Shown here one piece after another: positions 144 to 15,796 of a stretch of DNA of 15,796 nt. Under the pieces are notes generated by a model. It was not told the DNA's origin, made no database searches, and saw only the letters and a program-made list of their open reading frames with translations. A program made the position numbers and the translations under genes. The stretch is taken from positions 1 through 15,796 of the forward strand of contig CALCHY010000144.1 in assembly GCA_937907415.1 (NCBI GenBank), read 5' to 3'. The stretch comes from an uncultured Trueperaceae bacterium (GTDB taxonomy: Bacteria > Deinococcota > Deinococci > Deinococcales > Trueperaceae). Numbering within the stretch: position 1 is the stretch's first letter; each line of letters opens with the position of its first letter.

Positions 144-217
144 AGGCGGAAGCTAATGAGTAGCGCGGAGCACTACTCCCGGGCATCCGGGTGGCGCCCA
201 TCAGGTACGCCTAGGCC

Positions 218-992
218 TCAACCCTGGGGTCGGCCGGCGAGCACGTAAGCGGACTCTAGGAGGCGGGTGACCTCTTCCGGGGCTGTGAACGCGACCTTGA
301 GGTTTTTCAGGTCGCCTGCGCTCAGGTCGAAGGCGTCCAGGAATTCGCGCACGTCAGCGCGGACGGCTGCTGGGACGTCGTCGATGGGCGTTGGTATGAG
401 GAGCTGCGCTAGGCGCACGATGTCGTTGCGGTGCTTCTTGATGTCGCGCGAGTCGACATGTTCGGCGCGGTCACGCCTGGCGCGCAGGTCGAGGTAGGCG
501 CGCGCCTTGAGCGGGATGAGGTGCTGCGCGCCGACGGTCGGCACGCCACTGGTGTGGCGCCGTCCCGCCATTACCCAACGGTAGTAGGTGTCGTCCAGCA
601 GGATGGCGGAGAGACTGGAGAGATCCGAGTCGGTGGGGACAGGCGTCAGGTTCACGTCGGCCGGCACGCTGATCCCGTCGGGCCTGCGGGAGAACAGCTC
701 GAGCATGTGGGGGTAGGCGGCATCGCTCGGTTTTTGGAAGCGGTAGTAGGTGCGCGCGCCGGTGGCTTGCTCCTGGCGCGCGTAGCCGGCCGGCCTTCAC
801 GAACGCCCAGAAGGCGGCCAGGAAGCGCTCGTCGAGAACCTCGATGCAGAGGATGATGTCGAGGTCTTTGGTGGCGCGGAAGTCGAGGCCTTCTTCCTCC
901 ATGGCGAGCTGGCTGGCGGCGCCGCCGATGAGCAGGTAGCAGTCGGTGTGCTCCCGGAAGTGGTCGCGGAAGAGCTCCAGGCCTCTCACCAC
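218..992 (-). pseudogene. AbiEii-like nucleotidyltransferase (toxin of a type IV TA pair), one-base frameshift
   Basis: The start is GTG at 992, overlapping the TGA of the upstream gene by a few bases, which implies translational coupling. The N-terminal half carries the nucleotidyltransferase signature LLIGGAAS followed by TKDLDIIL (the Gly-Gly...Asp-x-Asp core that binds NTP and metal). After residue ~65 the frame is lost and resumes in the +1 frame as GYARQEQATGARTYYRFQKP and then MLELFSRRPDG to the TGA at 218. The break lies in a CCGG-rich run (785-795); removing one base restores FVKAGGYARQEQ, which fits how this family reads as I remember it, and gives a protein of about 256 residues, a usual length. 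In AbiE systems AbiEii is the toxic transferase and AbiEi its regulator. Either the toxin is dead here or the base is a sequencing or assembly error. Confidence 0.75.
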
Positions 993-1993
993 GGTAGGGC
1001 CTCCAGGGCTTGCTCGAGTGCGAGCTCGATGCGTTCGTCGTGCGTGTCGCGCAAGGAGAGGTAGAGCGACAGCACGTCAACGTGAGGGCCTTGCGTGAGG
1101 ACGCGCGGGTCGTAGGCCCACACCTCCACCAGCGTGTGGTGCGGCTCGAGGGCGCCGTCGCGGAAAGCTTCCGGCTCCAGTTCGGCCTCAAGTTCGCGCC
1201 AGGCGTCTTGGGCGAGCGCGACGGTGGGCTCGCGTGGCGGCGCTAGGTCGCTGAGGCGCCCGAGCGCGCTTAGGCCAGCCACTACGGCGCCGGGGATCTG
1301 GTGTGCGGCCGTGAGGTAGCGCGCGCGCACCGGCGAGCGCAGCAGTGGCTGCGCCCGCTGCCAGGTCTCGCGTTTGGGGCGCGCCAGGCGCGCGGGGCGC
1401 GGGCGGCCCGCGCGCGGGCGGGTGATGAGATCCGCCGATTCGAGCTCCTTGAAGGCGCGGCTCACCGTCATGGCCGAGACGCCCAGGGCGCGCACCAGGT
1501 CCTGGGCGTACAGGTCGCCCGCGTCCTCGGCGAGTAGGGCGCGGAGCAGGAGGAGCTGGGTGGTGGGGGCGAGCGCCTCAGGGGCGGCGCTCTGGGTGAC
1601 GCCACGGGGGCGGGCCGCCGCGCGCGAGTCGATGAGGGCGGGTGGTAGGTAGGCGTGGACGAAGGGCACGACGAACGGCGCGCGCCGCTCCACCAGGCGC
1701 TGCCGGTCGCGGGCGGGCAGGGCGTCGAGGACCAGCACGGCGGGGCGGCCGAGCGCTTCGGTCAGGCGCGACAGGCGCTTCTCGAGCGCCGCCGGCGTGC
1801 GTGGGGCAGCGGGCTTCAGGGTGGCGAACACGCACGGCACGTTCAGGATGTCGCCGCAAGCGAGTTCGAAGGTGTGCGCTAAGTAGGCGGGCAGCGGGGT
1901 GTCTGGGCAGGGCTCGAGGCGCACCGCTACGCCCGTCACCTCCTTAAGGTAGGTGGGGAGGGTGTCGGTGGTGTTCGGAGCCGGTGTTAACAT
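986..1993 (-). CDS. AbiEi-like winged-helix antitoxin/autorepressor
   Basis: This 335-residue protein has a typical winged helix-turn-helix at about residues 143-200 (LYAQDLVRALGVSAMTVSRA, then a Lys-Glu-Leu recognition-helix end and an RPRAGRPRP wing), preceded by a domain containing PFVVPFVHAYLPP and followed by an acidic C-terminal domain. The arrangement of a winged-helix gene overlapping a nucleotidyltransferase gene matches AbiEi/AbiEii, where AbiEi represses its own promoter and counteracts the transferase. The ATG at 1993 is chosen because a perfect TATAAT lies at 2007-2002 on the minus strand, only 8 bases upstream. This leaves almost no leader, and no Shine-Dalgarno sequence is seen. 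Inverted repeats over this promoter (separate entry) are the likely operator. The AbiEi label is a family-level inference from fold and partner. Confidence 0.7.
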   Translation of the reverse strand: MLTPAPNTTDTLPTYLKEVTGVAVRLEPCPDTPLPAYLAHTFELACGDILNVPCVFATLKPAAPRTPAALEKRLSRLTEALGRPAVLVLDALPARDRQRLVERRAPFVVPFVHAYLPPALIDSRAAARPRGVTQSAAPEALAPTTQLLLLRALLAEDAGDLYAQDLVRALGVSAMTVSRAFKELESADLITRPRAGRPRPARLARPKRETWQRAQPLLRSPVRARYLTAAHQIPGAVVAGLSALGRLSDLAPPREPTVALAQDAWRELEAELEPEAFRDGALEPHHTLVEVWAYDPRVLTQGPHVDVLSLYLSLRDTHDERIELALEQALEALPW

Positions 1994-2046
1994 CGCGTCG
2001 GATTATAACATACGCCCTGTTATAATCCATTGCGGTGTTAGCATCC
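1985..2046 (-). promoter_or_regulatory. Promoter/operator of the AbiE-type operon with TGTTANNATC repeats
   Basis: A perfect inverted repeat has arms GGATTATAACA (2000-2010) and TGTTATAATCC (2018-2028) around a 7-base spacer. The same half-site occurs as further direct copies, TGTTAACATCG at 1985-1995 (over the start codon) and TGTTAGCATCC at 2036-2046. The arms contain TATAAT in both directions, so the repressor would cover the -10 box. No good -35 box is visible. Binding of the AbiEi-like protein is inferred from known AbiE autoregulation through promoter inverted repeats. Confidence 0.65.
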
Positions 2047-2078
2047 CTCGGGGTCGTGCGTCGTCAACGGCGCTCTAG

Positions 2079-2798
2079 CGGGAGCAGGGCGGCGGCAGCA
2101 GGGACGCGCTCCTGGCACTAATGCCTGCTCTCATGGCGCTCGACGAACCGCCCCGTGTAGTGAATGTGGCCGCCTACCGTGGATGGCACGGCTTCCCGCA
2201 GGACCACCTAGCGAACCGCCACCTTTATCCACTCGCCTCCGAGCGTTGGTCTCCCGAGGAGCGTACGGCGGTCGAGTCGCTCATGGCGGACTTCACGCCA
2301 GCTTGGCGACCCCCGGAAGACGAGTTCAGTGATTGGCACGCCATGGTCGTCTCGCCAGCGAATGCAGGCGAACCGTCCTACCTGGGTCGACCGGTTGTCG
2401 TCCTAATGGACGCAGCGTGCTTCAGCGCAACAGACGTGTTCCTTTCCGCCCTAGGCGTGCTGCCCAACGTACTGCTCGTGGGCGAAGCCAGCGGTGGCGG
2501 CAGTGCCCGCGCTCAGGTGGTGGAGTTACCGAACTCCGGCGTGAAGGCGCGCTTCGCTTCCATGGCGTCGTTCCAGGCTTCAGGCGAACTGTTCGACGGA
2601 ACCGGCGTGCAGCCCGACTTGCGGGTAGATGTGGAGCCGGACTACTTCCTATCGGACGGGGCAGACCACATCCTTCAGGCCGGCAAGAAGGAACTGCTTG
2701 CGCGGCTCACGCGCGAAGCGCAAGGGATGGGCTACTATATAGAGACGTCAGTACCTAATGCCCCGCCAAAGGCGCCCGCGACCGAGGTTCCCCTATGA
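2079..2798 (+). pseudogene. 5'-truncated S41-family (C-terminal processing-like) peptidase
   Basis: The first ATG is at 2121, but the frame is open back to a TAG at 2076-2078 and the extra codons read GGGSRDALLALMPALM. This looks like the middle of the S41 catalytic domain (the Asp-x-Arg-Gly-Asn-x-Gly-Gly-Gly stretch). The part of the protein before it is absent, replaced by the AbiE operator region, so this is a 3' remnant. What remains includes VVVLMDAACFSATDVFLSAL with the nucleophile-region serine, GEASGGGSA and a late DGTGVQPDLRVDVEPDYFL segment. The general-base lysine that usually follows Gly-Glu-x-Thr-x-Gly is not at its expected place; tricorn-like or Ser-His variants exist. The 3' end overlaps the next gene by ATGA (2795-2798). 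Translation from 2121 would give 225 residues of doubtful function. Confidence 0.65.
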
Positions 2799-3337
2799 CC
2801 ACTAAGGCTCAACTACGCAAGACGGCACTCAGTCTCCCCGACGCGGTCGAGGATCAGCGGGACGGGTTGCCCGTTTACACCGTGCATGGCAAGGTGTTCG
2901 CCTCCCTCTCCGCAACGAAGCAGGTATCCCTCGCGCTGGATGAGGCCACCGTTCGAGACTCCTTGGGTCATTGCTCCATCACACGGATGCCCGCACCGAA
3001 CGGCGAGCGACTCTTGGTCTCGGTCCCACTTACGGACGTGAACGGCATGGAGCTCAACAACCTGGTGTTCAAGTCCTGGCTCAATCAGGCTCCACAGGAC
3101 CTTGCGTCCGCTGCGCGGGCAGCCATGAAGAGCGAAGCGCCAGCCGGACCAGACGCGCTACCGAAAGCCATCGGCAAGCCTGCCACCAGAGCGCTTCTCC
3201 TAGCCGGGATCACCAACCTTGAGCAGGTCGCCGCCCACACGGAGTCCCAGTTGCTCGCACTGCACGGCGTGGGGCCGCGCGCTATGAAGATTCTGCGCGA
3301 GACGCTCAGTGCCGCAGGGCGGGAACTCGCTCGGTGA
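2795..3337 (+). CDS. MmcQ/YjbR-type protein with C-terminal helix-hairpin-helix domain
   Basis: The 180-residue product starts at the ATG that overlaps the preceding stop codon (ATGA), so it depends on translational coupling or on transcription from the truncated peptidase gene. Residues 1 to about 110 fit the MmcQ/YjbR fold (SLPDAVEDQRDGLPVYTVHG, KVFASLSA, a Trp-Leu near the end of the domain). Residues about 120-175 (LPKAIGKPATRALLLAGITN, then LLALHGVGPRAMKILRETL) form a helix-hairpin-helix/RNA polymerase alpha-CTD-like module with the GVGP hairpin, suggesting nucleic-acid contact. The exact biochemical function is not known for the family. Confidence 0.7.
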   Translation: MTTKAQLRKTALSLPDAVEDQRDGLPVYTVHGKVFASLSATKQVSLALDEATVRDSLGHCSITRMPAPNGERLLVSVPLTDVNGMELNNLVFKSWLNQAPQDLASAARAAMKSEAPAGPDALPKAIGKPATRALLLAGITNLEQVAAHTESQLLALHGVGPRAMKILRETLSAAGRELAR

Positions 3338-3367
3338 GCTGAGTCACCAAGCGACTAGCGGCAGTAC

Positions 3368-3637
3368 TCACTCATCTTCTTCCGCCAATGGGCACTTACC
3401 CCGGCGGTCCTCCCCAACCAGCGCGTGGTCCCGTTCCTTCCCTGGCGGCACAAAGACCACGCCGCGTGCCTCCGCGTAAGCGCGCACGTCGGTCGCTCGC
3501 ACGCACGTCGCTCCACCCTCCTCTACCGTCTTGATCAGCCCAGTCCTCAGTAGCCTTTCCAGCCATGGCAACGAAACTCCTAGCGCTTCCGCGGCTTCGC
3601 TCTTGGTCAAGAACATGCTTCTCTGGTCATCGTCCAT
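3368..3637 (-). CDS. Excisionase/MerR-like HTH protein
   Basis: An 89-residue protein whose residues ~9-58 are an excisionase-family winged helix: FLTKSEAAEALGVSLPWLER, a short turn, LIKTVEEGG, then ATDVRAYAEARG. The ATG at 3637 follows a GGAG about 8 bases upstream. The C-terminal tail is charged and has no domain I recognise. The same module is found fused to Phd and to TacA in nearby genes (3938 and 6764 starts), so this looks like the free-standing form of the domain. It converges on the YjbR gene with only 30 bases between stops. It probably binds DNA as a small regulator or antitoxin; a partner toxin (in related loci often a PIN protein) is not present. Confidence 0.6.
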   Translation of the reverse strand: MDDDQRSMFLTKSEAAEALGVSLPWLERLLRTGLIKTVEEGGATCVRATDVRAYAEARGVVFVPPGKERDHALVGEDRRGKCPLAEEDE

Positions 3638-3675
3638 ACTCTCGGCTCCAGGTCGAGTCGCTGGCTTGATTGGTT

Positions 3676-3700
3676 CGGGCGCCGAACTAACCGGCGCCCG
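3676..3700. repeat. GC-rich hairpin in divergent intergenic region
   Basis: CGGGCGCC (3676-3683) and GGCGCCCG (3693-3700) form an 8-bp perfect stem with a 9-base loop. An alternative smaller hairpin, GTTCGG-GCG-CCGAAC, overlaps the left arm, so two foldings compete. It lies 39 bases upstream of the minus-strand HTH gene and may be an operator. The rest of 3638-3937 holds no gene I can support; a Shine-Dalgarno GGGAGG (3923-3928) for the next gene lies at its end. Confidence 0.35.
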
Positions 3701-3937
3701 CGGCGGAACCTTGAAGCGAAGTAGGGGGAGAGGACGTAGGGCTCAGCCGCTACGGGCAACTACATTGACGAGCCAGCAACGAACCATTTCCAGAGTCGAC
3801 GAACACCAACAACGGCGTGCGGCCCGTCGTTCCCCCACGGCGGGCCGTTCTCCGTTCTGGCTGCGATCGCCGTATCGGGTTGGCGCGCTCGGTCCAGGTG
3901 CAGGGTGGCGGTAGCCTGATTTGGGAGGTGGTGGCTG

Positions 3938-4318
3938 GTGCGTAGTGTGAGCGTGACGGTGGCGCGCAGGAACTGGTCGAAGCTGCTGGCGGCGGTCGAG
4001 GCCGGCGAAGTGGTCATGATCACGCGCTACGGGAAGCCGGTGGCGCGCTTGGAGCCGGCGGCTGTCGTGGGGGTGTCCGCGAGCGATTCCGGGCCGGGGG
4101 AGGTGATGAGCGTGGAGGCGGCCGCGCGACTCTTGAACGTGTCGCGCGCGTGGTTGGAGGGGCTGCTGGCGCGTGGTGAGCTTGAGGCGTTGGTCACGGG
4201 TGCTGGCGTGCGTTTGCGGTCGGCGGAGGTGGTGGCGTTCAAGGAGAGGCGTGACGCGCGCCGCCGGGAGCTGTGGAAGGGGAATGGCGTATACGCAAGA
4301 GGAGATCGACCTCATTGA
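3938..4318 (+). CDS. Phd/YefM-type antitoxin fused to an excisionase-like HTH
   Basis: The GTG at 3938 has a good GGGAGG 9 bases upstream. Residues 4-42 (VSVTVARRNWSKLLAAVEAG, then EVVMITRYGKPVARLEP) are the Phd/YefM N-terminal DNA-binding fold. Residues ~56-108 (MSVEAAARLLNVSRAWLEGL, VRLRSAEVVAFKERR) are an excisionase-type winged helix like those in the genes ending at 3368 and 6264. The usual C-terminal Phd toxin-binding extension is replaced by this domain. The last 11 residues are probably not original: a +1 shift in the GGGG run at 4279-4282 would continue the protein as ELWKGMAYTQEEIDLIESDV to the TGA at 4358, giving an acidic tail. No Doc, RelE or PIN toxin follows. Confidence 0.7.
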   Translation: MRSVSVTVARRNWSKLLAAVEAGEVVMITRYGKPVARLEPAAVVGVSASDSGPGEVMSVEAAARLLNVSRAWLEGLLARGELEALVTGAGVRLRSAEVVAFKERRDARRRELWKGNGVYARGDRPH

Positions 4319-4358
4319 GTCGGATGTGTGGGACGGCTGGGGCCGCGAACAGGAGTGA
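4284..4358 (+). CDS. 24-residue acidic ORF, or the frameshifted tail of the Phd-HTH gene
   Basis: ATG at 4284 preceded by GGAAGGGG opens a 24-residue reading frame, MAYTQEEIDLIESDVWDGWG plus four residues. It overlaps the 3' end of the Phd-HTH gene by 35 bases in the +1 frame. It could be a coupled small protein. I think it is more likely the true C-terminus of the Phd-HTH protein, separated from it by one extra G in the GGGG run just upstream, because the join reads smoothly and acidic tails are common toxin-contact segments of antitoxins. Confidence 0.4.
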   Translation: MAYTQEEIDLIESDVWDGWGREQE

Positions 4359-4451
4359 GGAGTTCCCGGGTTGGTGGGGGTGGCGGCGCGCTTTCTCAGT
4401 TTGTGGAGGCCAAGGAGGCAGCGATTTAACAGTGAGCCCGGGAGGCAACGC

Positions 4452-4724
4452 ATGAGCGCGGAGGGTCAGCGGGACATCACGGCGGGTACCGGCAACGTCT
4501 TCGCTGACCTGGGCCTGCCTAATCCCGAGGAGCGCCTCGCGAAGGCGCGCCTGGCGAGCCGGATTCTGGACGCAATCGAGGCGCGCGGCTGGACTCCCGG
4601 GCATGTTGCTGAGGTGCTCGCCTTGAGCGAGGCGGAGACTTCCCTGCTTCTGGCCGGCAGGCTCAAGGGTTTCAGCATCGAGCGGTTGACGCGGCTCCTG
4701 GCGGTTGTGGAGGGCGGCGGCTAG
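4452..4724 (+). CDS. HigA2-like XRE-family antitoxin, orphan
   Basis: The start is the ATG at 4452 with GGGAGG 6 bases upstream; an ATG/GTG further upstream only adds a non-conserved basic stretch. The 90-residue product has the pattern GNVFADLGLPNPEERLAKAR, then an XRE helix-turn-helix (ILDAIEARGWTPGHVAEVLA) and LLAGRLKGFSIERLTRLL. This is the signature of the small XRE antitoxins that normally follow a HigB/Gp49-like RelE-fold toxin. No such toxin is found in the 90 bases upstream or anywhere nearby. Its stop codon shares a CTAG palindrome with the stop of the convergent gene 4721-4888. Confidence 0.75.
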   Translation: MSAEGQRDITAGTGNVFADLGLPNPEERLAKARLASRILDAIEARGWTPGHVAEVLALSEAETSLLLAGRLKGFSIERLTRLLAVVEGGG

Positions 4725-4888
4725 TTGTCGTCGGTCTCTTGGTGGAGGCCGCGTACGTGCCAGCCGAGCCGGTGGGCTTCCCGGGCTGTGGTGTCGTGCC
4801 AGGCGCTCCAGTCGGTGGCGGGTCTGCTGGTGGTGGGCGCCCAGGCGTTGGTGGGTTGCGCGACGAAGTACCGGACGGTGAGCGTCAC
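4721..4888 (-). CDS. Small hypothetical protein (55 aa)
   Basis: GTG at 4888 opens a 55-residue frame beginning VTLTVRYFVAQPTNAWAPTT and ending HVRGLHQETDDN. The GTG overlaps a TGA of the preceding frame (GTGA at 4885-4888), which is operon-like. The protein is rich in Trp, Thr and His/Arg with no cysteines and no membrane segment. I do not recognise it. It is last in a minus-strand set of XRE regulator, 50-residue protein and this protein. Its stop shares CTAG with the convergent HigA2-like gene. Confidence 0.45.
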   Translation of the reverse strand: MTLTVRYFVAQPTNAWAPTTSRPATDWSAWHDTTAREAHRLGWHVRGLHQETDDN

Positions 4889-4962
4889 TTCGGCAGCGTC
4901 GTGCGGCCGGTGATGGTGATTGCGTTGGGGTGCCCGGGGGAGCGCGCCGGCCTTGAGGCCTG

Positions 4963-5115
4963 TCAGGAGAAGCGCAGCGCGTGACGCAGTTCGTCGAGGC
5001 CTGAGGGCTCACGCATGATCCGCTGGGCGCCTGGGCCGCAGCGGACGACGCGGTAGAAGTGATCGCCCGGTGTGTTGTCGTCCCCGTGCGGGCTGTCAGG
5101 TCGTGGGTCGTTCAT
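4963..5115 (-). CDS. Small hypothetical protein (50 aa) coupled to an XRE regulator
   Basis: The ATG at 5115 overlaps the TGA of the XRE gene as ATGA. The product starts MNDPRPDSPHGDDNTPGDHF and ends DELRHALRFS. After the TGA, coding-like sequence continues in other frames (LLTGLKAGALP, then GHPNAITITGRTTLPK), and the last of these ends at the GTGA where the next small gene starts. So the original protein may have been about 75 residues, with two compensating one-base changes near 4965 and 4937, or the tail is chance. I do not recognise a family. An ATGA overlap with a putative antitoxin gene is where a partner gene would sit, but nothing here resembles a known toxin fold. Confidence 0.5.
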   Translation of the reverse strand: MNDPRPDSPHGDDNTPGDHFYRVVRCGPGAQRIMREPSGLDELRHALRFS

Positions 5116-5444
5116 TCGCGTATCGGACGATGGGGGTCGCGTGCGTCGTGCAGCGCGCGCAGGTAGGCGCGCAGCGTCGCCAGCTGCAGCGCGTCCGGGT
5201 GGCCTTGCTCGAGGCGGGCGAGGTAGCTCTCTGGCACGCGTAGGCGCGCCGCCAGCTCGGCGCGGGTGAGGCTGGCCGCCTGCCGGCGTTCGGCGAGGGC
5301 GTTGCCGGTGGTGGCGGCTATGAGACGGCGCTTGTGTGCTGCCACGGCCTGCTCGTCCAGGTGGCCTTCCTTGACGGCCTTGGCGCGCACGTCGCGCCAG
5401 CGAGCGGCCTTGGGTGCGCGTTGCTTCTGGTGCGGCATGCTCAT
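5112..5444 (-). CDS. XRE-family HTH regulator, antitoxin-like
   Basis: The 110-residue product has a basic N-terminus, a linker helix (KEGHLDEQAVAAHKRRLIAA) and an XRE helix-turn-helix at residues ~50-85 (RQAASLTRAELAARLRVPES, YLARLEQG). This order is common in HigA-type antitoxins of high-GC bacteria. Two starts are possible: ATG 5444 and ATG 5438. The second lies 7 bases after a TAGAGT (minus strand 5451-5446), which would make a leaderless transcript. A small inverted repeat ATAAC-8-GTTAT (5443-5460) overlaps this box and could be its operator. One of the structured repeats lies 113 bases upstream. The gene is followed without a gap by the 50-residue ORF. Confidence 0.7.
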   Translation of the reverse strand: MSMPHQKQRAPKAARWRDVRAKAVKEGHLDEQAVAAHKRRLIAATTGNALAERRQAASLTRAELAARLRVPESYLARLEQGHPDALQLATLRAYLRALHDARDPHRPIRE

Positions 5445-5460
5445 AACTCTATGCGGTTAT
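5443..5460 (-). promoter_or_regulatory. Putative -10/operator of the XRE gene
   Basis: ATAAC (5443-5447) and GTTAT (5456-5460) are inverted around 8 bases that include TAGAGT on the minus strand, a TANNNT -10 match placed 7 bases before the ATG at 5438. Autorepression would be natural for an XRE regulator. Confidence 0.35.
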
Positions 5461-5493
5461 GGGGGTAGTGGCGCTATCGGGGGATCTGGTTCG

Positions 5494-5541
5494 GGTCCGC
5501 GCGGAATGGTCGTGGCCCGCGGACCGAGGTCATGGCGGGCC
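5494..5541 (-). promoter_or_regulatory. Two overlapping, mutually exclusive hairpins in the leader of the XRE gene
   Basis: GGTCCGCG (5494-5501) pairs with CGCGGACC (5518-5525), and GGCCCGC (5514-5520) pairs with GCGGGCC (5535-5541). Bases 5518-5520 are needed by both stems, so an RNA from the minus strand could adopt only one at a time. This is the usual layout of an attenuator switch, but no U-tract follows either stem, so a purely structural or chance origin in GC-rich DNA remains possible. Confidence 0.35.
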
Positions 5542-5556
5542 GCTTCTCTTGCGGGG

Positions 5557-5630
5557 TTCGTATCCGGGGGTCATCATCGGCCCTTGCCCCGGAGCGGATA
5601 TGCCCCGGGACTCCGGGAGGGGAATAGCAG
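5557..5630 (-). repeat. Structured ~72-bp repeat, copy B
   Basis: This copy begins 18 bases after the HigA stop codon (minus-strand sense). Read on the minus strand it has TGCTAT, a CCC-rich stretch, GTCCCGGGGC, a small central hairpin (CGG...CCG), then GATGATGA and CCCCCGGATA. The outer segments CCCGGGG and CCCCGG can pair around the central hairpin. It aligns along its full length with the copies at 6153-6223 and 6825-6896. B and the C copy also share CCGCGGGCCACG further along (plus-strand positions 5511-5522 and 6795-6806). Confidence 0.7.
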
Positions 5631-5647
5631 CTAGCGCTGGTGAGGGC

Positions 5648-6067
5648 TTAGGTGTCGCTGTTGCCCGCGTGGGGCGTGATGGCTGCCAGCTCGTGGCTGA
5701 TTCGTTCGCGCGTGACCTCAAGGTCGTGTTGCGCTTGCAGGTTGAGCCAGAACTCGGGGGTGGTGTCGAAGTAGCGCGCCAGGCGCAGGGCGTCGTCGGC
5801 GGTGATGGGCCGCTGGCTGCGCGCCAGTGATGCGGCGCTCTCGACTGGCAGGCGTAGGCGTTCGGCCAGGTCCGCGGCGGTGAGCTCGAGTGGGTCCAGG
5901 AACTCCTCCTGGAGTGTTTCGCCGGGATGCACGGGCGGCAGGGCGTCTTCGCTCAGGAACTCTTGGATGCGTTCTTCGGTGTATATCTCGGGCTCGGGTG
6001 TGCCGGCGGGCTGTTGGCCGGGCTTTTCGGTTTCGTCCTGCGGGTTGGGGTCGGGAATGTCGTTCAT
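5648..6067 (-). CDS. higA: HigA-family antitoxin, orphan
   Basis: The ATG at 6067 follows a strong GGAGGAA. Residues 44-125 have the HigA pattern PPVHPGETLQEEFLDPLELT, an XRE fold (AADLAERLRLPVESAASLAR), then ITADDALRLARYFDTTPEFW and LNLQAQHDLE. The 139-residue protein is longer than the usual ~95-105 because of an N-terminal extension of about 40 residues (PNPQDETEKPGQQPAGTPEP, then IYTEERIQEFLSE), with a polar start that looks disordered. A HigB toxin gene normally lies directly upstream; here the upstream 196 bases hold only a palindrome and a structured repeat. It may be a stand-alone regulator or a neutraliser of a toxin encoded elsewhere. Confidence 0.85.
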   Translation of the reverse strand: MNDIPDPNPQDETEKPGQQPAGTPEPEIYTEERIQEFLSEDALPPVHPGETLQEEFLDPLELTAADLAERLRLPVESAASLARSQRPITADDALRLARYFDTTPEFWLNLQAQHDLEVTRERISHELAAITPHAGNSDT

Positions 6068-6120
6068 GGGTTCCTCCCGGGGTGCTCGTCGGTCTATCGG
6101 CGCGGTGGTGGGAGAGAGAA

Positions 6121-6146
6121 CTGCGGAACGCCCGGGCGTTCCGCAG
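6121..6146 (-). terminator. Perfect 26-bp palindrome with pyrimidine tail (terminator/attenuator candidate)
   Basis: The 26 bases form a perfect palindrome (arms CTGCGGAACGCCC and its complement), giving an 11-bp stem with a CCGG loop in RNA. On the minus strand it is followed by TTCTCTCTCCC, a weak U-rich tract. It sits between repeat A and the HigA start, 54 bases before the ATG, so it may be an attenuator in the higA leader. It could also be a protein-binding operator, which would equally well be a perfect palindrome. Confidence 0.5.
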
Positions 6147-6152
6147 GTGGAG

Positions 6153-6223
6153 CTCTTACCCGGGGTTCATCACCGGTCTTTGCCGGGAGGGGAGTAGCCT
6201 CGGGACTCGAGGGGATGATAGCA
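6153..6223 (-). repeat. Structured ~72-bp repeat, copy A
   Basis: The copy starts 40 bases after the TacA-HTH stop. On the minus strand it reads CTGCTATCAT (an extended -10-like TGNTATNNT), CCCCTCGAGTCCCGAGG, CTACTCCCCTCC, the hairpin CCGG-CAAAGA-CCGG, TGATGA and ACCCCGGGTAAGAG. CCCGAGG and CCCCGGG can pair as an outer stem with one mismatch. Compared with copies B and C, the stem positions change in both arms while TGCTAT, the CCGG-type hairpin position and ATGA-CC are kept. Confidence 0.7.
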
Positions 6224-6263
6224 GGCGGGCTCGGCCGGCACGCGAGGGGCCGCGCGGCCGGGG

Positions 6264-6764
6264 TCAGTAGCCGTGTCCTTGTTCCTGAGCGTCGCGGGTG
6301 AGCTCGTCGAGGACCCGTTGGCGTTCCTGGTCGTCGCGCGCCTTGTAGGCGAGTAGGGAGCCGCGGTCGATGCGCAGGCGGGCGCCCTCGCCATGGTGGT
6401 CAATCTGGCCTTGAGCGAGGAGGCCTTTCACGTAGGACCGGGAGGCGTTGAGCAGCTCGGCGGCCTGGTGGAGGGTGAGTTCCGCGGGCAGCGTGGCGGC
6501 GTCCTGTGGGCGGGGGCGGGCGAGCAGGTCGCGGAGGGCGGGGTTGGGTTCGCCGGGGTTCCGGAGCGACTCGGCGACGCGCCGGCTTTGCTCGGCGTTC
6601 AGGTACATGACTTCGCCGTTGATCACGCGGCGCGCTTGCGCTTCGGCGGCCGCCGTTACGAAGTCGGCGAGGAAGACGTCCGCGTGGGCAGCTGCTTGCG
6701 TGATGAGGTCTCTCTGGGTGGGTGTGAGGCGCAGGGTGAGGCGCGCGGTTTTCGGTTCGCTCAT
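6264..6764 (-). CDS. TacA-type RHH antitoxin fused to an excisionase-like HTH
   Basis: The ATG at 6764 is preceded by a GGAGAGGAG stretch. Residues 7-47 (ARLTLRLTPTQRDLITQAAA) are the DUF1778/TacA ribbon-helix-helix. Residues 55-83 (LNAEQSRRVAESLRNPGEPN, PALRDLLA) match the TacA toxin-neutralising segment with its N-P-x-x-P-N-x-x-L motif. So the antitoxin part looks complete. A second DNA-binding unit follows at residues ~94-143 (AELTLHQAAELLNASRSYVK, LRIDRGSLLAYKAR), ending in a charged helix LDELTRDAQEQGHGY like the tails of HTH antitoxins paired with PIN toxins. At 166 residues it is well above the ~90-100 of TacA. The GNAT acetyltransferase toxin (TacT) that should follow is missing; repeat A and higA come next. 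Confidence 0.8.
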   Translation of the reverse strand: MSEPKTARLTLRLTPTQRDLITQAAAHADVFLADFVTAAAEAQARRVINGEVMYLNAEQSRRVAESLRNPGEPNPALRDLLARPRPQDAATLPAELTLHQAAELLNASRSYVKGLLAQGQIDHHGEGARLRIDRGSLLAYKARDDQERQRVLDELTRDAQEQGHGY

Positions 6765-6824
6765 GGCGGCTCCTCTCCTGGGTCTTGATTGGAACGTGGC
6801 CCGCGGTGTGGGGGTCAGGCCTTT

Positions 6825-6896
6825 GGCTTACCCGAGGCTCATGCACCGGCGCTGGTGCGGGAGGGGGCGCTCGGGGCTACGTGGTGAGGATAGCAA
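6825..6896 (-). repeat. Structured ~72-bp repeat, copy C
   Basis: This is the outermost copy, upstream of the TacA-HTH gene and 18 bases downstream of the stop of a decayed minus-strand frame. On the minus strand it reads TTGCTATCCTCA, CCCCGAGCGCC, CCCTCC, a hairpin GCACC-AGCGCC-GGTGC, ATGA, GCCTCGGGTAAG. The outer stem is CCCGAG/CTCGGG. The central hairpin differs in sequence from copy A (GCACC/GGTGC against CCGG/CCGG) but keeps pairing, which supports a conserved structure. Confidence 0.65.
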
Positions 6897-6913
6897 TGGG
6901 TTCGTGAGGGTTT

Positions 6914-7203
6914 CTAGGGGTCATTGGGTGGCCCAGAAGGGGGGGCGTCGCTGTCGGTTTCGTGGCTGGTTCCGGGGTGATTGCGGAGGGTGAGGGTCCA
7001 CTTGCCGGCGGGGGTGCCGAACTTGACGCGAGTAGGTTCGATGCGGTTCTCGTCAAGGAGGTGGGTCTTACCGTCCAGCCCCGGGCGGTGTGGTTGGGCG
7101 CTTCGCGTAGGCGGTTGCCTGATTCAACTTCCGGAATGGCTTGGCGCGTCCATGGGTGTACGGACTCCTGGTGGCGGTGTACGATTGCTGTCAGGCGCGA
7201 TAG
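6914..7203 (-). pseudogene. Decayed minus-strand coding region of unknown family
   Basis: Two abutting open stretches in different frames look coding. From about 7203 to 7075 the minus strand reads LTAIVHRHQESVHPWTRQAI, then PEVESGNRLREAPNHTARGW. From 7075 to the TAG at 6914 a shifted frame reads DGKTHLLDENRIEPTRVKFG, then TPAGKWTLTLRNHPGT. Composition is balanced and unlike the repetitive Pro/Arg/Ser of neighbouring shadow frames. The start TAIVHR and a later PEVE recall HicB-like antitoxins, but the match is too weak to name. It ends 18 bases before repeat C, the same spacing as higA to repeat B. Together with repeat C it accounts for most of the gap 6765-7243. No intact start codon is seen. 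Confidence 0.35.
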
Positions 7204-7243
7204 TTATGCTTTGTGGGCGACGCGACTTTCTTCGGGGGTTCCA

Positions 7244-9490
7244 ATGAAGCACTTGACTCGTTCTCTTTTGGTCGTTCTCTCTCTCGTGCTGGTGGCCTGT
7301 CAGGGTCCTGGTGTGGTGGGTCCGGGTGTGGATGATCCCGGAGCGCCTGAGGGCGTGATTGTTGGCACGCTTACGGACCGTGCGGGCGTGCCCTTGGTGG
7401 GTGCGCAGGTCACGTTGGGGGGCGGGAGTGTCAGCGCGGCCGGGTTGACGACTGTCGCCGTGGATTTGGTTTTCACTAACGTTCGGGGCGAGTTCGCTTT
7501 CAACGTGGGCGAGGAGGGGGAGTACACCCTTACGAGTCTTCTTGATGATCAGGGAGCGTTCGCGCGCGTCTTGGTTACGCGGGGTGCGGATGGCAAGCTC
7601 GTCTCGGGCGCCGTGAGTTTGCAGGCGGTTGAGTTAGGGGCGGTGGCGGGCCGTATTGCCGGTAAGGGGGCGGGTGCGTGGGCGTATTTGTTGGGCACGA
7701 GTTTCCTGGCCAGCACTGATGCCGATGGCGCGTTCGTGATCTCGCGCGTGCCTGCGGGCACGTATCAACTGGCGCCTGGCCTTCTGGGTGCGACAGGTGC
7801 GCCGGTGTCCGTGACGGTTGAGGCGGGCAAGCTCACGACCGTCGCTGCTCCGCTGGTGTTAGGTCCGGTCATCACCGGCGTCGAGCCTAGCGGCTTCTCG
7901 ACCTGGGGGCGCGCCTGGGACACGGGCTCTGATACACCGAGTGAGGTGGTTATCCGGGGGAGCGGCTTCGGTGATGAGGTGGGGTTGTCGCAGCTACGTT
8001 ACGCCGGTTGGGAGCTCTCGAACGCCGTGCTTTCCTGGTCCGACGATGAGATCGTCTTGAGTACGCGCCACGACTGGGGACGCAACCGCACGGTTGACTT
8101 TGAAGAGTTGCGCTTCTCGTTCGCGTCAGTGACCGGATCTGCGCTCTCCAATGTCGGGGGCATCGTGAGCGGGTACGGGAGTACATTTGAATGTCTCCCT
8201 GCTGTTCATAACGAGGGTTGGGTGGGGATCGCTCCACGGGTCTTCTGGGATACCCGGGTTAGGGGCGCCGAGGTTGCCTTCACGGTCTTCAACGGCAGCG
8301 CGCGTAGCGGGCCTGGTGGCGCGATGGTCAGCGTCATCACGACGGACGACGATGGTTGTGCGGCGGCGTACATAGAGGCTGACGCCAACGCGCGCCTCCC
8401 GGTCGTCGCCGAGGTCAGCTTCCACGGCGCAACGCTGGAGCCGCTGGTAGTCGGCAATGGCGCGTACTTAGAGCTTGACAGCTACTACGTGGAGCCGGGC
8501 CCGAACGTGGTTCAGGGTCAACTCCTGCTGTGGGAGACCGGCGAGCCGATGGATGACGATGGCAACTACACGGCGGGCATGAGCTGCATGTACCGCGGTG
8601 TGAAAGTCGAGGTTCCGATAAGCCTCGATAACGAGGGCCGGTTCTCGGTGCCGCTAGAAGTCTCCGATGAGCCGTGGTGCGATCATCTGGTCATCAAGTA
8701 CCGAGGTGTGGAAGTTTCGGGTGCATCTCTTTCCGTGATTTCCGAGCCTGAGACGCAGTACGTGGCGGCCACCACGAGTGCTTATTCGCCCGTTGCCAGT
8801 GCACACCTTCAGCCTGGCTGGAGCGCTCGCTTCGAGGTTGAGGTTGACGCCACCGTCGCGAACGCTGGGGCGGCGCTCTACCTCGAGCTCAGTCAGGACC
8901 TCCCAACGGAAGTAGTTTGGCGAGGGGCAGCCTATTACAGCGCAAGCAGAGAGCGCTTCAGCGCAACTCCTATGGGGCCCGCATCAGAGGGCCAACTACA
9001 ACCCAGTTCTATCGATGTGTTAATAACATGCCGCGGTTCTTGTGTGATCGTGGACTCGACAACTGCCACTGCGGTGGTGACCGTTACGAACCCGTACGAG
9101 TACGACTACTTCTTCGACCTCTACGCTTACACCGAGGCCTTCAATGACCTGAGCGAACCCATGAACGACTCTCGCGCGGGCGCCGAGCTCTTCTCCTTGA
9201 CCGAGGGTGCGAGCGGCGCCCTCGAGACCATCGGGGACGTGGACTATTACCAGGTTAGCCTTGACGGGCCTTCTTCCGGGATTCTGGACCTCTATACTTC
9301 CGGATTTGTTGAGGCGGTTGTCTTCGTTGAAGACGCATCTGGCTTAACAGAGCATGGGCCGTATTACCCTGGCGACCATTTCGACGTTCTAGCCGGGGAT
9401 TACTTGCGGGTTCAAGCGGTGGGGGACGTCGCGGCGGCGTCCGCAAACAGCGCTTATTACCTCTACCTCGTGAGCCACGCCGGCTGGTAG
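7244..9490 (+). CDS. Large lipoprotein with regulatory-like, IPT/TIG and PPC-like domains
   Basis: The ATG at 7244 starts a lipoprotein signal peptide, MKHLTRSLLVVLSLVLVAC, with lipobox LVAC and lipidated Cys19. An in-frame open stretch further upstream has no signal and is not used. The mature part has two carboxypeptidase-regulatory-like beta domains (about residues 36-97, GVIVGTLTDRAGVPLVGAQV, and 132-180, DGAFVISRVPAGTYQL), an IPT/TIG-like domain (about 206-285, VITGVEPSGFS...VVIRGSGFGDEVG) and a large central region I do not recognise. The final ~108 residues contain GALETIGDVDYYQVSL, typical of pre-peptidase C-terminal (PPC) domains. There is no catalytic motif. It is probably an outer-surface adhesion or scaffold protein. 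The Shine-Dalgarno is weak (GGGGG). It stands alone, with no same-strand neighbour close by. Confidence 0.8.
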   Translation: MKHLTRSLLVVLSLVLVACQGPGVVGPGVDDPGAPEGVIVGTLTDRAGVPLVGAQVTLGGGSVSAAGLTTVAVDLVFTNVRGEFAFNVGEEGEYTLTSLLDDQGAFARVLVTRGADGKLVSGAVSLQAVELGAVAGRIAGKGAGAWAYLLGTSFLASTDADGAFVISRVPAGTYQLAPGLLGATGAPVSVTVEAGKLTTVAAPLVLGPVITGVEPSGFSTWGRAWDTGSDTPSEVVIRGSGFGDEVGLSQLRYAGWELSNAVLSWSDDEIVLSTRHDWGRNRTVDFEELRFSFASVTGSALSNVGGIVSGYGSTFECLPAVHNEGWVGIAPRVFWDTRVRGAEVAFTVFNGSARSGPGGAMVSVITTDDDGCAAAYIEADANARLPVVAEVSFHGATLEPLVVGNGAYLELDSYYVEPGPNVVQGQLLLWETGEPMDDDGNYTAGMSCMYRGVKVEVPISLDNEGRFSVPLEVSDEPWCDHLVIKYRGVEVSGASLSVISEPETQYVAATTSAYSPVASAHLQPGWSARFEVEVDATVANAGAALYLELSQDLPTEVVWRGAAYYSASRERFSATPMGPASEGQLQPSSIDVLITCRGSCVIVDSTTATAVVTVTNPYEYDYFFDLYAYTEAFNDLSEPMNDSRAGAELFSLTEGASGALETIGDVDYYQVSLDGPSSGILDLYTSGFVEAVVFVEDASGLTEHGPYYPGDHFDVLAGDYLRVQAVGDVAAASANSAYYLYLVSHAGW

Positions 9491-9857
9491 GTCTGTGAGT
9501 AGCTGGTCCGGGACCGGCTGCCAGGCTGGTACCGGTGCTCTTCTTGGTTCATGGCTCGCGAATCGCATTGCCGTTCGATTGATGACTGGCATGCACTTCC
9601 CGGGATTTGCCTGAGCCTTGAAGAGGCCGGCATTTGCCTGGCGCACTGGAATGGCGTGACTAGAAGCCTGCCAGCCGCATTTGGGCGTGGCTTTTGTCCC
9701 CGGCAGAATGGGAATAGAACGCAGTAGTGTGCCCACCACTTCAGGACGGTGCGGAAAGCGGCTTCATCACTGGCCCCCAATGGCTAATGCGCCGCGCCAG
9801 CTTAAGGGCGCTGATGCGTGAGCCGAGGACCACCGCACCCCTGTTCGCCAGTAGCTG
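9491..9857. other. Intergenic region without a supported gene
   Basis: After the lipoprotein stop there is a short GGTCC-G-GGACC palindrome (about 9508-9518) without a T-tract, and ATTTGCCTG occurs twice about 30 bases apart near 9604-9640. A minus-strand frame (GASDEAAFRTVLKWWAHYC near 9775) looks briefly coding but lacks support beyond that. I see no RNA gene. Confidence 0.3.
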
Positions 9858-10460
9858 CTACGAGTCCGCGATTGGGCTACGGCCCGTGCTGGTTTGGCGA
9901 TCGAGCGTGCGGTACACGGTGGGCCGTGAGATGGAGAACAGCTCGGCCAGATCGCTGACCGAGTAGTAGCCGGTGTCGTACATGCGCCTGAGCTCCTGCT
10001 GCTGCCGCGTCGACAGCTTGGGCCTGCGGCCCTTCAGTTTGCCTTTGGCTCGTGCGATGGCCATGCCCTCGCGGGTGCGCATGCGGATGAGGTCGGCTTC
10101 GAACTCGGCGAAGGTGGCGAGGATGTTGAAGAAGAGCTTGCCCATGGGGTCGTTGGGGTCATGAACACTGGCGCCGATCTGGAGCTTCACTCCGTTGGCT
10201 GCGAGGTTGTCGCCGATGGCGCGCGCGTCGGGCACGGATCTCGCCAGGCGGTCGAGCTTAGGCACCACCAGCGTGTCGCCCTTGCGAGTGGCGGCGAGTG
10301 CCTGGTCGAGGCCGGGGCGGGCGCGGTTGGTGCCGGTGAAGCCGTGGTCGGTGTAGATGCGCTCGGCCGCCACGCCAAGATTTAATAGCGCATGCTTCTG
10401 GGCGGCGAGGTCCTGCTTGTCGGTGGAGCAGCGGGCGTAGCCGATGAGGGTGGGCGCCAT
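9858..10460 (-). CDS. Serine resolvase/invertase (Tn3 resolvase type)
   Basis: The start is the ATG at 10460 (MAPTLIGYARCSTDKQDLAA); the open frame continues upstream but its sequence is not resolvase-like. The 200-residue size is normal for the small serine recombinases. Ser12 in YARCSTDKQ is the nucleophile, with the arginine cluster KLDRLARS at residues 68-75 and the E-helix region FAEFEADLIRMRTREGMAIA. A helix-turn-helix DNA-binding domain lies at ~150-190 (LSTRQQQELRRMYDTGYYSV, LFSISRPTVYRTL). A TACACT lies 5 bases before the ATG, so the transcript may be nearly leaderless. ATGCG-9-CGCAT (10459-10477) overlaps it. No transposase of the Tn3 type is present, so this is a stand-alone recombinase, possibly a remnant of a transposon or plasmid resolution system. 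Confidence 0.9.
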   Translation of the reverse strand: MAPTLIGYARCSTDKQDLAAQKHALLNLGVAAERIYTDHGFTGTNRARPGLDQALAATRKGDTLVVPKLDRLARSVPDARAIGDNLAANGVKLQIGASVHDPNDPMGKLFFNILATFAEFEADLIRMRTREGMAIARAKGKLKGRRPKLSTRQQQELRRMYDTGYYSVSDLAELFSISRPTVYRTLDRQTSTGRSPIADS

Positions 10461-11036
10461 GCGTGAGTGTATCGCATGACGCCCCTTCACTGAGAATGTT
10501 ATCGGACCACCTATGTGAGACGCACTGCGCCTCGCCAAACTCGTGTTTGGGCCCTTGTTGGCGGAGCGTCCGTTGAGCGGTCCCCTAACGGGCGCTATGG
10601 AAATGCCCATGCTCTGACCGAGGTTGACAATCTCCCAAGGGCGGGTTTGCCATCTATCGCTTGAGCGGCTCAGCGTGCTGGCTTTCGAGATTGGCCAGCG
10701 GCGGCTACGAGACCGCACAGTAGTGAACATGGACGAGAACGCCTCCGGGGAAGACCTTCCGTAGTGAGCATGTCATACGCGGCATACTGCGATTGGAGGT
10801 AAATCCGTGCCTCTACCAAAGGCGAGCGGTTTGCCCTTCGTCCCGGTCCCGCCCGGGATTCGGTGGAGGTCCTGCGCCAAAGTGGAGAGGAGTCATCAAG
10901 AAACGTAGGTAGCGGCGCGGTCGCGACCCTTGACTCTCCCGTTGGACGCTTTCCGGCTTCTGAGCGAGGATGACTTCCAGGCCCTATAAGGCATGGCGCA
11001 GGACGCGAGGCGAGTAGCGGCCGAGCTGAGTTCCGT
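10461..11036. other. Long gap without a supported gene
   Basis: I find no convincing gene here. On the plus strand a short stretch before a TAA at about 10986 reads LPLDAFRLLSEDDFQAL and could be the tail of a lost gene; a 33-codon frame with GGAGG and a GTG start lies near 10796-10909 but looks random. The segment next to the resolvase would be the natural place for a res recombination site, but I cannot delimit subsites by eye. Confidence 0.3.
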
Positions 11037-11573
11037 TCACCGCGCTGTGCGGGAACGCCCGGATGCGGGCACATGACCCTGCATCATGCGCGTTTCCCGC
11101 TTGGTGAACCTGGGGGTGCCGTTGTCCGGTTCGCAGAGGGGGTCAGAGAAGACGAAGCTACCTGACCAGGTGCGTCCCTGGATGGTGCACTGCATGGAGA
11201 TGGACCAGGCGTGATAGCCGTACCGGAAGCACTTCACTTCCACCAGGTCAGCGCTGCGGCAGTAGATCGTCCGGTAGGCGGAAGAGCCGAAGCCCTCGAA
11301 TGCCGCTGGACGTAGGTGGGTGTCACCGCTATTGGGGCCGACTGAAAAGTTGACAATCTCGGTCTTTGGTTCTGGAGGGGCAAGCTCCACGTGTCGAAGG
11401 AGCCGGGGCCGGTCGGATGCGCTCATTGCAGACGGGTCGGTGCCAAGGTTGGAGCGCTCAAGGGCGAAGGTCACGCCGCCCATGGCCACGAGGCATGACC
11501 TATTGGTGTGGCTCAGGTGGGCTCTTCCACTGCTCCTGGCGGGAGCGATCTTGTGGCAACTGCTCGCCAACAC
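11037..11573 (-). CDS. Hypothetical protein, possibly degenerate
   Basis: A 178-codon frame, with alternative starts at 11483 (MGGVTFALERSN) and near 11426 (MSASDRP). The C-terminal two thirds (IVNFSVGPNSGDTHLRPAAF, YGYHAWSISMQCTIQGRTWS, PLCEPDNGTPRF) has the composition and cysteine spacing of an exported beta-rich domain. The N-terminal part has no signal peptide, and the first ~50 residues look non-coding. So this may be a gene that lost its original 5' end. No Shine-Dalgarno is apparent at any start. No family is recognised. Confidence 0.4.
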   Translation of the reverse strand: MLASSCHKIAPARSSGRAHLSHTNRSCLVAMGGVTFALERSNLGTDPSAMSASDRPRLLRHVELAPPEPKTEIVNFSVGPNSGDTHLRPAAFEGFGSSAYRTIYCRSADLVEVKCFRYGYHAWSISMQCTIQGRTWSGSFVFSDPLCEPDNGTPRFTKRETRMMQGHVPASGRSRTAR

Positions 11574-11650
11574 TGGACCGTAACGCGGCCACCCATCGTT
11601 CAGTTACGTTGACGCACATCCACTACAGAACGGCGCTCGCTAACGAAAGG

Positions 11651-11688
11651 CTCGCCTCCCGCCCGGGAGAACCCGGGCGGGAGGCGAG
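11651..11688. terminator. 17-bp perfect stem-loop, terminator of the lipoprotein operon
   Basis: CTCGCCTCCCGCCCGGG (11651-11667) and its exact complement (11672-11688) flank a 4-base loop (AGAA on plus, TTCT on minus). It begins 35 bases after the stop of the minus-strand lipoprotein gene. A short CCTTTCGTT follows on the minus strand and a TGCGTTTGC on the plus strand, so termination, if intrinsic, is U-poor. No plus-strand gene ends close upstream. Confidence 0.6.
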
Positions 11689-11722
11689 TGGCTTGCGTTT
11701 GCTCAAGGATGCAGCTTGGCCC

Positions 11723-12916
11723 CTACGGTAGGCCCGGAATCGTCAACTCCAGGAAGAAGTCGGCGATCGGGAAGTCTGGGCGGTCCGCGAACGTCAGCAG
11801 TAGCGGCACGGTGTTCGCGTAGCCGTAGAGGACGTCCATGTCGAGGCTGCCGGTGATGTCGACGTACTTGCGGCCCACGGTCAGCTTCGCCGAGTCGAAC
11901 TCGATGGCGGACGGCCGCGCGAGCTCGCCGTCTTCGCCCGTTACGCCCCATTCGAACGAGAGCCCGATCCCGCTATCGGCCTGGCCGGCGTGCAGGTCGA
12001 ACGAGCCGTTGAAGGGGCCCTCGATGCCGTTCAGCTGGCAGCTCTCGGCGCTGCGGGTCACGGCGCCGGCGGTGAAGTCGGCGGCGGCGGAGAAGGGAAC
12101 GCGCAGCGATCCGCTCGCGACGCTCCCCTTGAGGCTGATGGCGATGGTCTCGTCCGCAGAGTGGTCGAACGCGAAGCTCTCGAGCTCGATGACCTGCGAG
12201 CCGCTGCGGAATGATCCTGAGGCGGTCACGGTCCGGTACTCGAGCAGTCGTCCGCAGGAAGTCTCGGCCCACGTCTGCTCGACGTCGAGGTGGATTATCT
12301 CGTTGCCACTCTGCTTGGCGTTCAGGGTGATGCGGCTGGGAACGTCCAGCTCCTGGTCCACCAGGAAGTAGGGCAGGTAGAGGCCTTGCGTGGGCACGTA
12401 GGGCACGTACGGGAAATTGACCTGGTGGTCGTAGGTCTTGGCCCTCACGATGCCGTGCCAGTCGAGGCGCACCTCCACCGGGTCGCCGCTTTCCGCGTGC
12501 GACCAGCTGACGATGAGGGATTCGGCGGGCTGGGCGTCGTAGGTGAAAGCGTTGCTTGCCTCGTCGTAAGTGTAGGTCCCTGAAGCCAGCCGCATGTTCG
12601 TGGGCTCCCACTCCTCCGCGTACTCGTAGACCATCAGGAAGATGCCGGGGAAGAAGCTGACGTGCGCCTCGGAGTCGAGCCCACAGTACCCGCAGTCGGG
12701 GAAGCCGCCGGCGTCGGTGAAGGTAGAGTTGCTGGCGATGCCGCTGGCTACCGACACGAAGTCGGCCATCAGGGCGTTCAGCCCGCCCACCGCCTCCTCG
12801 AAGGTGGCGCGCTCCGGCGGGGGCGTGCCGCCGCCAGGGCCGTCGGAATTATCGCAGCTGACGAGCAGCAGAGTTAGAGCGAGGGTTACGAGGATGCCGA
12901 GTGGACGTCTGAACAT
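11723..12916 (-). CDS. Hypothetical lipoprotein (397 aa), second gene of operon
   Basis: The ATG at 12916 follows a perfect AGGAGG, and the product begins MFRRPLGILVTLALTLLLVS with lipobox LVSC (Cys21), so it is exported and lipid-anchored. The mature protein starts with a Gly/Pro linker (DNSDGPGGGTPPPE). Then come an alpha-helical start (FEEAVGGLNALMADFVSVAS), a Cys pair in DCGYCGL, and a long beta-rich body with repeated self-similar strands (SGSFRSGSQVIELESFAFDH, NGSFDLHAGQADSG) up to LELTIPGLP. Two later cysteines (SCGRL, ESCQLNG) may form a disulfide. I do not recognise the family; no enzyme motif is seen. It is 8 bases downstream of the preceding lipoprotein gene, whose TAG is part of this gene's ribosome-binding site. 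Confidence 0.75.
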   Translation of the reverse strand: MFRRPLGILVTLALTLLLVSCDNSDGPGGGTPPPERATFEEAVGGLNALMADFVSVASGIASNSTFTDAGGFPDCGYCGLDSEAHVSFFPGIFLMVYEYAEEWEPTNMRLASGTYTYDEASNAFTYDAQPAESLIVSWSHAESGDPVEVRLDWHGIVRAKTYDHQVNFPYVPYVPTQGLYLPYFLVDQELDVPSRITLNAKQSGNEIIHLDVEQTWAETSCGRLLEYRTVTASGSFRSGSQVIELESFAFDHSADETIAISLKGSVASGSLRVPFSAAADFTAGAVTRSAESCQLNGIEGPFNGSFDLHAGQADSGIGLSFEWGVTGEDGELARPSAIEFDSAKLTVGRKYVDITGSLDMDVLYGYANTVPLLLTFADRPDFPIADFFLELTIPGLP

Positions 12917-12924
12917 GACGCCTC

Positions 12925-14259: not shown

Positions 14260-14321
14260 CGGTCTTCGAGTTCATCCAGGCGGAGAAGGCGAATCACAGT
14301 ATCAGGACCCTGTGCCGAGTC

Positions 14322-15722: not shown

Positions 15723-15796
15723 ATGTTTGTCAAGCGGCGACCTGGAGTTGGTTGACCTGGGTGTTGCGTTGCTATATGAGGTAGTAGGCCTCTCTG

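Follow-up and report, generated by a model that had tools for sequence, protein, structure and literature searches.

A conserved promoter-RNA candidate repeated before orphan antitoxin genes in a branch of the Trueperaceae

A short element stands before each of three antitoxin genes on a 15,796-nt stretch of DNA from an uncultured Trueperaceae bacterium (GCA_937907415.1, contig CALCHY010000144.1, positions 1 to 15,796; the whole stretch is referred to as the window), and from its sequence it appears to be a real, conserved and lineage-restricted promoter-RNA candidate without a known family. Copies C, B and A precede genes 1, 2 and 3, respectively, and two further copies, D and E, are present in a complete genome labelled Truepera (G093). 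We favour, with a probability of about 40%, the reading that the element joins a promoter to a short structured RNA, which would be made beside each of genes 1 to 3 and would in most cases be terminated.

Gene 1 (6264..6764, minus strand) encodes a TacA1-like antitoxin with an HTH_17 C-terminus (Pfam PF08681, 9.6e-15; PF12728, 6.6e-8), for which no toxin partner was recognised. Gene 2 (5648..6067, minus strand) encodes a HigA-like antitoxin whose HTH_3 match of 22.4 bits falls just under the cut-off of 23; 28 proteins among the matches listed, the window's own included, show 67-100% identity to it over 95-100% coverage. The 27 others range from 67 to 90% identity, and for six of these the longest contig measures 33-140 kb. 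Gene 3 (5112..5444, minus strand; likely start 5438) codes for an XRE-type antitoxin (Pfam HTH_25, 9.2e-9; HTH_31 and HTH_3). Altogether six antitoxin-type genes are found between 3368 and 6764, and no toxin was recognised by Pfam among the 20 window proteins scanned. The HTH_17 C-termini are fused to different antitoxin N-termini (TacA1 and Phd) and the G093 translations differ in make-up, from which we suggest that these orphan antitoxins may have been assembled by domain shuffling. In a database protein, P0044, a HigA domain like that of gene 2 seems, by eye, to be fused with the N-terminal part of gene 3. Elsewhere in the window, two overlapping minus-strand frames at 218-992 give the impression, from their translations, of one interrupted nucleotidyltransferase-like gene, with no Pfam match for either frame, and are adjoined by a winged-helix gene at 986-1993. 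A 26-nt inverted repeat at 1985-2043, whose arms are 81% complementary across a gap of 7 nt and which shows TGTTATAATC on either strand, lies between divergent genes and is likely a promoter/operator.

The pattern TGCTATN{35,60}ATGANCYYSGGRTA has exactly three matches in the window, all on the minus strand (5561-5629, 6157-6223 and 6829-6895), and none in 200 dinucleotide shuffles, which bears out an earlier sequence-only reading that had described three copies in one orientation. Local alignments of the inter-genic stretches score 77 for A-B, 56 for B-C and 41 for A-C, while the best of 300 mononucleotide shuffles reach 43, 39 and 39; A-B and B-C are hence clearly above the shuffles and A-C narrowly so, its similarity being marginal if taken alone. 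A chance or low-complexity repeat is ruled out by the shuffles together with the independent G093 copies. The same reading placed the start of every copy 18-40 bases past a minus-strand stop; this is correct for A (18) and B (40) and wrong for C, before which no minus-strand gene was recognised, only a divergent plus-strand gene (start probably 7244, by eye).

All copies carry a TAnnnT-like hexamer that resembles a -10 box (A to E: TATTCC, TATCAT, TATCCT, TACCAT and TATCCT). In the window the hexamers lie on the minus strand at 5621..5626 (A), 6215..6220 (B) and 6887..6892 (C), each preceded by TGC (5627-5629, 6221-6223 and 6893-6895). Copy A, the poorest match, is without the final T and copy D without the TG, and the hexamer was chosen with a pattern written after the copies had been seen. 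From the hexamer start to an invariant G the distance is 12 bases in five of five copies, AGYCCCG following at 13-14. The conserved core begins at this G, and 26 of the 66 columns in the core alignment are invariant. The window cores, again on the minus strand, span 5557..5614 in A (predicted 5' end G 5614; A/E alignment), 6153..6209 in B (G 6208) and 6825..6880 in C (predicted transcript 5' end G 6880), and score 69.1, 67.2 and 65.9 bits, respectively, as training sequences of a structured model, R2, built from all five copies. Upstream of the G the similarity between C and D drops sharply; upstream of the hexamer little is common to the window copies, and nothing obvious to C and D.

This spacing matches that of leaderless promoters in the lineage. 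Among 305 candidate starts in 400 kb of G093, taken from crude gene calls, TAnnnT occurs 12 or 13 nt before the ATG in 24 cases (16 at 12 and 8 at 13), with a background in the same set of 0-3 per position at 17-39; a backward control motif is also raised at distance 12 (9 versus 16 for TAnnnT). PMC12340547 describes Deinococcota leaderless promoters in which TANNNT lies some 6-7 bp ahead of the ORF, the motif being found at this distance in D. radiodurans and present across the phylum. Because the hexamer-G spacing equals that of these promoters, by the G093 calibration and by the same paper (PMC12340547), the core would start where the RNA should start. The element thus has the hexamer type and the spacing to a predicted +1 that PMC12340547 gives for leaderless promoters, but those carry the start codon at +1, whereas here a non-coding conserved core follows. 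No TTGACA/TATAAT (sigma-70) promoter pair was found in window 5000-7300 or in G093 9300-11600. A leader-peptide reading (ATG xxx CYC GGR TAA) was rejected, its stop being present in B, C and D and absent in A and E.

Copies A, B, D and E are each followed by a hairpin of 7-13 pairs, which begins 62-75 nt and ends 88-105 nt past the predicted start. Copy A has a GC-rich hairpin with 7 outer pairs in its fold (5515..5543, minus strand), and copy B an 11-bp GC-rich one with a T-rich tail (6121..6146, minus strand), terminator-like both in the scan and in the fold. The corresponding hairpin of copy C (6798..6821, minus strand), traced by the C/D alignment and by folds, has a decayed left arm and is intact in its G093 counterpart D. 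Perfect stems of at least 8 follow B, D and E; of 121 co-directional gaps examined in G093, 10 have such a stem no more than 90 nt from the stop. The yardstick is rough, since the distance from the preceding stop to the element hairpins is about 80-120 nt. Both this GC-rich hairpin and the invariant G are absent from the sequence-only reading. A terminator scan gave one site, after copy B, in window 5000-7300 (2.5 expected in shuffles) and five in G093 9300-11600 (1.1 expected), where the site over the hairpin of E lies on the opposite strand and the sole sense-strand site at the gene 2 stop. A good T-tail is found in copy B only. We regard the assignment as a terminator as good for B, fair for D and doubtful for A and E; the latter two hairpins may instead end antisense transcription, because their T-rich flank is on the opposite strand (A by eye, E by scan).

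Within the core, RNAalifold recovered an outer stem and a CCGG hairpin, with an unfavourable covariation term (+1.32). The outer CCCGRG/CYCGGG stem had been assigned to all window copies, yet only C forms all six pairs, B having A x C and A having C x A at the stem base; in G093, copy E forms all six (one G-U) and D five. The central hairpin, said to change in sequence while still pairing, is mostly a conserved CCGG...CCGG motif and its covariation equals that of shuffled controls (339 of 500 as good). Nor did the covariation expected of a structured cis-regulatory RNA or riboswitch rise above background: 86% of cells are paired compared with a shuffled mean of 85.6% and the score is 0.100 compared with 0.089, five sequences giving low power. 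Since covariation and counted pairs match the shuffled controls, the fold is put forward as a proposal and not as an established structure. Fold energies of the window cores are ordinary (z -0.3 to -0.9), and reach z = -1.1 to -2.8 with the hairpin included.

The route to G093 led through P0008, a homologue with the source name Truepera sp., and a class-level search. A sequence-only model built from the window's three copies alone detected D and E with E-values of 1.6e-10 and 6.3e-9 (36 kb searched), in an array syntenic with that of the window: D stands before gene 1 and E before gene 3. In G093 a single fused gene (235 aa) corresponds to genes 1 and 2, which leaves copy B without a counterpart. 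Neither G093 copy contains TGCTAT. Gene 3 carries a leaderless-type -10 box of its own, TAGAGT, 13 nt ahead of the ATG in both genomes (window 5446..5451, minus strand, ATG 5438); in G093 the ATG of gene 1 is preceded at 14 nt by TACTAT. The arrays become homologous at 6880, where the core of copy C begins (element C/D). Their flanking genes differ, and so, judged by the translations, does the domain composition of genes 1, 3 and 5. A GC-rich hairpin that both arrays keep ahead of the Phd gene (window 3819-3864; 11324-11369 of the G093 locus L167) marks the opposite edge of the shared block. Genes for TniQ, TniB, a Mu-type transposase (TniA) and a TnsA-like protein (L167 12245-18935) adjoin the G093 array; they may belong to a Tn7-like transposon with the array possibly among its cargo, and a repeat search at this set showed no evident ends. 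Mobility of the array as a whole seems likely, because the homologous block begins at 6880 and the G093 array adjoins the Tn7-like set, even should recombination not take place at the element itself. A scan of 400 kb of G093 together with the array region, 420 kb in all, found only D and E, the next hits of 19.2 and 14.8 bits being far weaker.

The taxonomic distribution appears narrow. When R2 was scanned over 111 genomes of the class, with the first 50 candidates scored per genome, 65 had a match at E up to 1, only the two of G093 being strong (about 1e-15), and no further clear copy was seen among these candidates. The next-best matches, in G070 (4e-4), G020 (1e-3) and G103 (6e-3), were rejected for broken pairs, gaps or a missing ATGA, and for having no hexamer 12 bases before +1. 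Another model, R1, matched one of 39 family genomes (up to 102 candidates scored per genome). A looser pattern found none of the 111 class genomes and a strict one no stretch in the species genomes; both require TGCTAT, which the G093 copies do not have. HigA-like homologues occur in 22 of the 39 family genomes and are just 27-53% identical outside G093; the 19 such loci inspected (one per genome, G093, G083 and G108 excepted) hold no element. In the species genomes, the best 80 of 518 relatives of P0008 are mostly ordinary HigA genes, and none is titled Truepera. A widespread or viral element was rejected: a loose pattern returned 54 IMG/VR stretches, none like the core on inspection and many of them repeating a single 57-nt sequence with the look of coding DNA, while two stricter patterns gave no match and related-protein searches no relative in IMG/VR. 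In plasmid DNA, 15 records match stretches of genes 1 and 2 only, and the 19-35-base matches of 13 records to copy A were dismissed as chance. Moreover, the tail of protein P0012 (ENA, 507-base contig) reads through an apparent sixth copy: its back-translation permits TGCTATCATC and, by eye, 17 bases of the 3' motif of E, and does not permit CCCG of the 5' stem strand. This suggests a sixth copy of the element with a different 5' stem strand.

Comparison with Rfam 15 returned no family at the gathering cut-off in the whole window. Sub-threshold matches touch the element in the window with 17.9 and 11.4 bits, against cut-offs of 50 and 45. In G093 one such match covers D and the hairpin that follows it (20 bits, cut-off 37), and another lies next to E on the other strand (26 bits, cut-off 80). 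The Rfam result is in line with the earlier remark that no described element is known to have this sequence; we call the element undescribed in the sense that none of the literature titles listed describes it and no Rfam family matches it at the cut-off.

According to the reading we favour, each copy would be a small transcription unit with an (extended) -10 promoter. The transcript would start at the invariant G and cross a core of about 50 nt with an outer stem, a C-rich loop, the CCGG hairpin and an ATGA bulge; in four of the five copies it would then meet the GC-rich hairpin and yield a short RNA, some 90-105 nt long. What the sequences show is the conservation, the spacing, the synteny and the placement ahead of genes 1 to 3; transcription, termination and the RNA fold are predicted. 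Features of such a small RNA are present to different degrees, hexamer and spacing in five of five copies and the hairpin in four of five. The element lies between hexamer and same-strand gene in all five copies, and three of the downstream genes carry a -10 box of their own. These boxes, at gene 3 in both genomes and at G093 gene 1, are why we favour a separate short RNA there: at A and E, and also D, it would be made beside the next antitoxin gene and not as its leader. The promoter of copy C most likely drives gene 1, since the hairpin of C is decayed. As for a target, pairing of the C-rich loop with Shine-Dalgarno sites would be a guess; of 15 core-Shine-Dalgarno duplexes, only some are better than their shuffles, 2 to 152 of 200 shuffles being as good.

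The main rival, which we hold to be possible if on the unlikely side, shares the same promoter and RNA and takes the hairpin as a conditional terminator and the core as a sensor, so that read-through into the antitoxin gene would be regulated. Bacterial structured leaders and attenuators of the riboswitch-like kind likewise show a promoter, a compact core and a GC hairpin followed by the gene. The element stands before each of genes 1 to 3, copy B is missing where the G093 genes 1 and 2 are fused, and window genes 1 and 2 have Shine-Dalgarno sites and, by eye, no -10 box of their own. Furthermore, pairing of the outer-stem 3' strand with the hairpin in copy B (-20.1 kcal/mol, 0 of 500 shuffles as good) resembles an antiterminator alternative; however, the same pairing is unexceptional in A, D and E (37, 103 and 28 of 500 as good). 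Against an attenuated leader speak also the separate -10 boxes and the control-level covariation; these two features and the missing Rfam match set the element apart from known structured leaders. A leader exerting common control, as the sequence-only reading thought possible, is doubtful for A and E on account of the gene's own box, and a model search of the window placed no copy at the other antitoxin-type genes (3368-3637, minus; 3938-4318 and 4371-4724, plus). Of the two readings it offered, a promoter with structured RNA nevertheless fares better than a cassette border, gaining from the spacing in five of five copies, the placement and the stem and hairpin recovered by RNAalifold, and losing from the unfavourable covariation. 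We consider unlikely a plain DNA repeat, either a promoter with a downstream operator for the antitoxins or a repeat spread by gene duplication, in which any RNA fold would be incidental. GC-rich inverted repeats would suit helix-turn-helix antitoxins, and the ordinary fold energies and control-level covariation are what this explanation expects; A and B may have been copied along with their genes, because genes 2 and 3 both have HTH_3-type domains and a common 40-nt stretch at 80% identity. Yet copy C stands before a gene of a different family, gene 1 (TacA1-HTH_17), the core is located past the predicted start site and begins at +1, and the copies share little upstream of the hexamer.

That the element is the border of a mobile unit, a cassette or recombination element, seems very unlikely. 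In its favour, array homology does begin at C/D with differing flanking genes, the G093 array stands beside TnsA/TniA/TniB/TniQ genes, and genes 1, 3 and 5 differ in domain make-up. Like integron attC sites, the copies are imperfect repeats of comparable size that separate small genes, and two of the three in the window lie just past a stop. The attC consensus has R'' RYYYAAC and R' GTTRRRY, but neither motif occurs in the five inter-genic stretches carrying copies; no integron integrase was seen among the 20 window and 9 G093 proteins scanned, and a copy precedes the first gene whereas none follows the last or lies elsewhere in the 420 kb of G093. Type III toxin-antitoxin systems similarly place a short RNA (ToxI-like) and a terminator beside their genes and have a ToxN-family gene downstream. 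The element differs from them in having no tandem repeats and no recognised endoribonuclease toxin gene, a ToxN-family domain being absent by Pfam among the 20 window proteins. Frpo/ssi promoters, which would give early antitoxin expression from single-stranded DNA on DNA entry, hold -10 and -35 in a folded stem. In single-strand DNA folds, by contrast, the hexamer is paired at 0, 1, 2, 3 and 4 of its 6 bases in A to E, there is no -35, and no relaxase or transfer gene lies above cut-off among the scanned proteins; a sub-threshold NikA-like match was noted on gene 1. We therefore give such a promoter almost no probability, and considered it because PMC11541004 reports orphan antitoxins to be enriched in plasmid leading regions together with Frpo-like repeats, several related same-strand copies likewise standing before orphan antitoxin or anti-defence genes, so that the gene content fits.

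Returning to the promoter with a short RNA, a wider interpretation would make it a new structured-RNA family, confined to toxin-less antitoxin arrays of one Trueperaceae branch and made beside each antitoxin, as a common regulator or as the RNA partner of the array (e.g. by binding to the Shine-Dalgarno sites in mRNAs for toxins or antitoxins); we think this decidedly doubtful. If the element is transcribed, a lineage-specific RNA would be common to several orphan antitoxin genes, drawn from two families or more, and joint expression of toxin-free antitoxin arrays ('anti-addiction' islands) would become testable. The element further suggests a way in which structured RNAs could lie next to leaderless promoters in Deinococcota.
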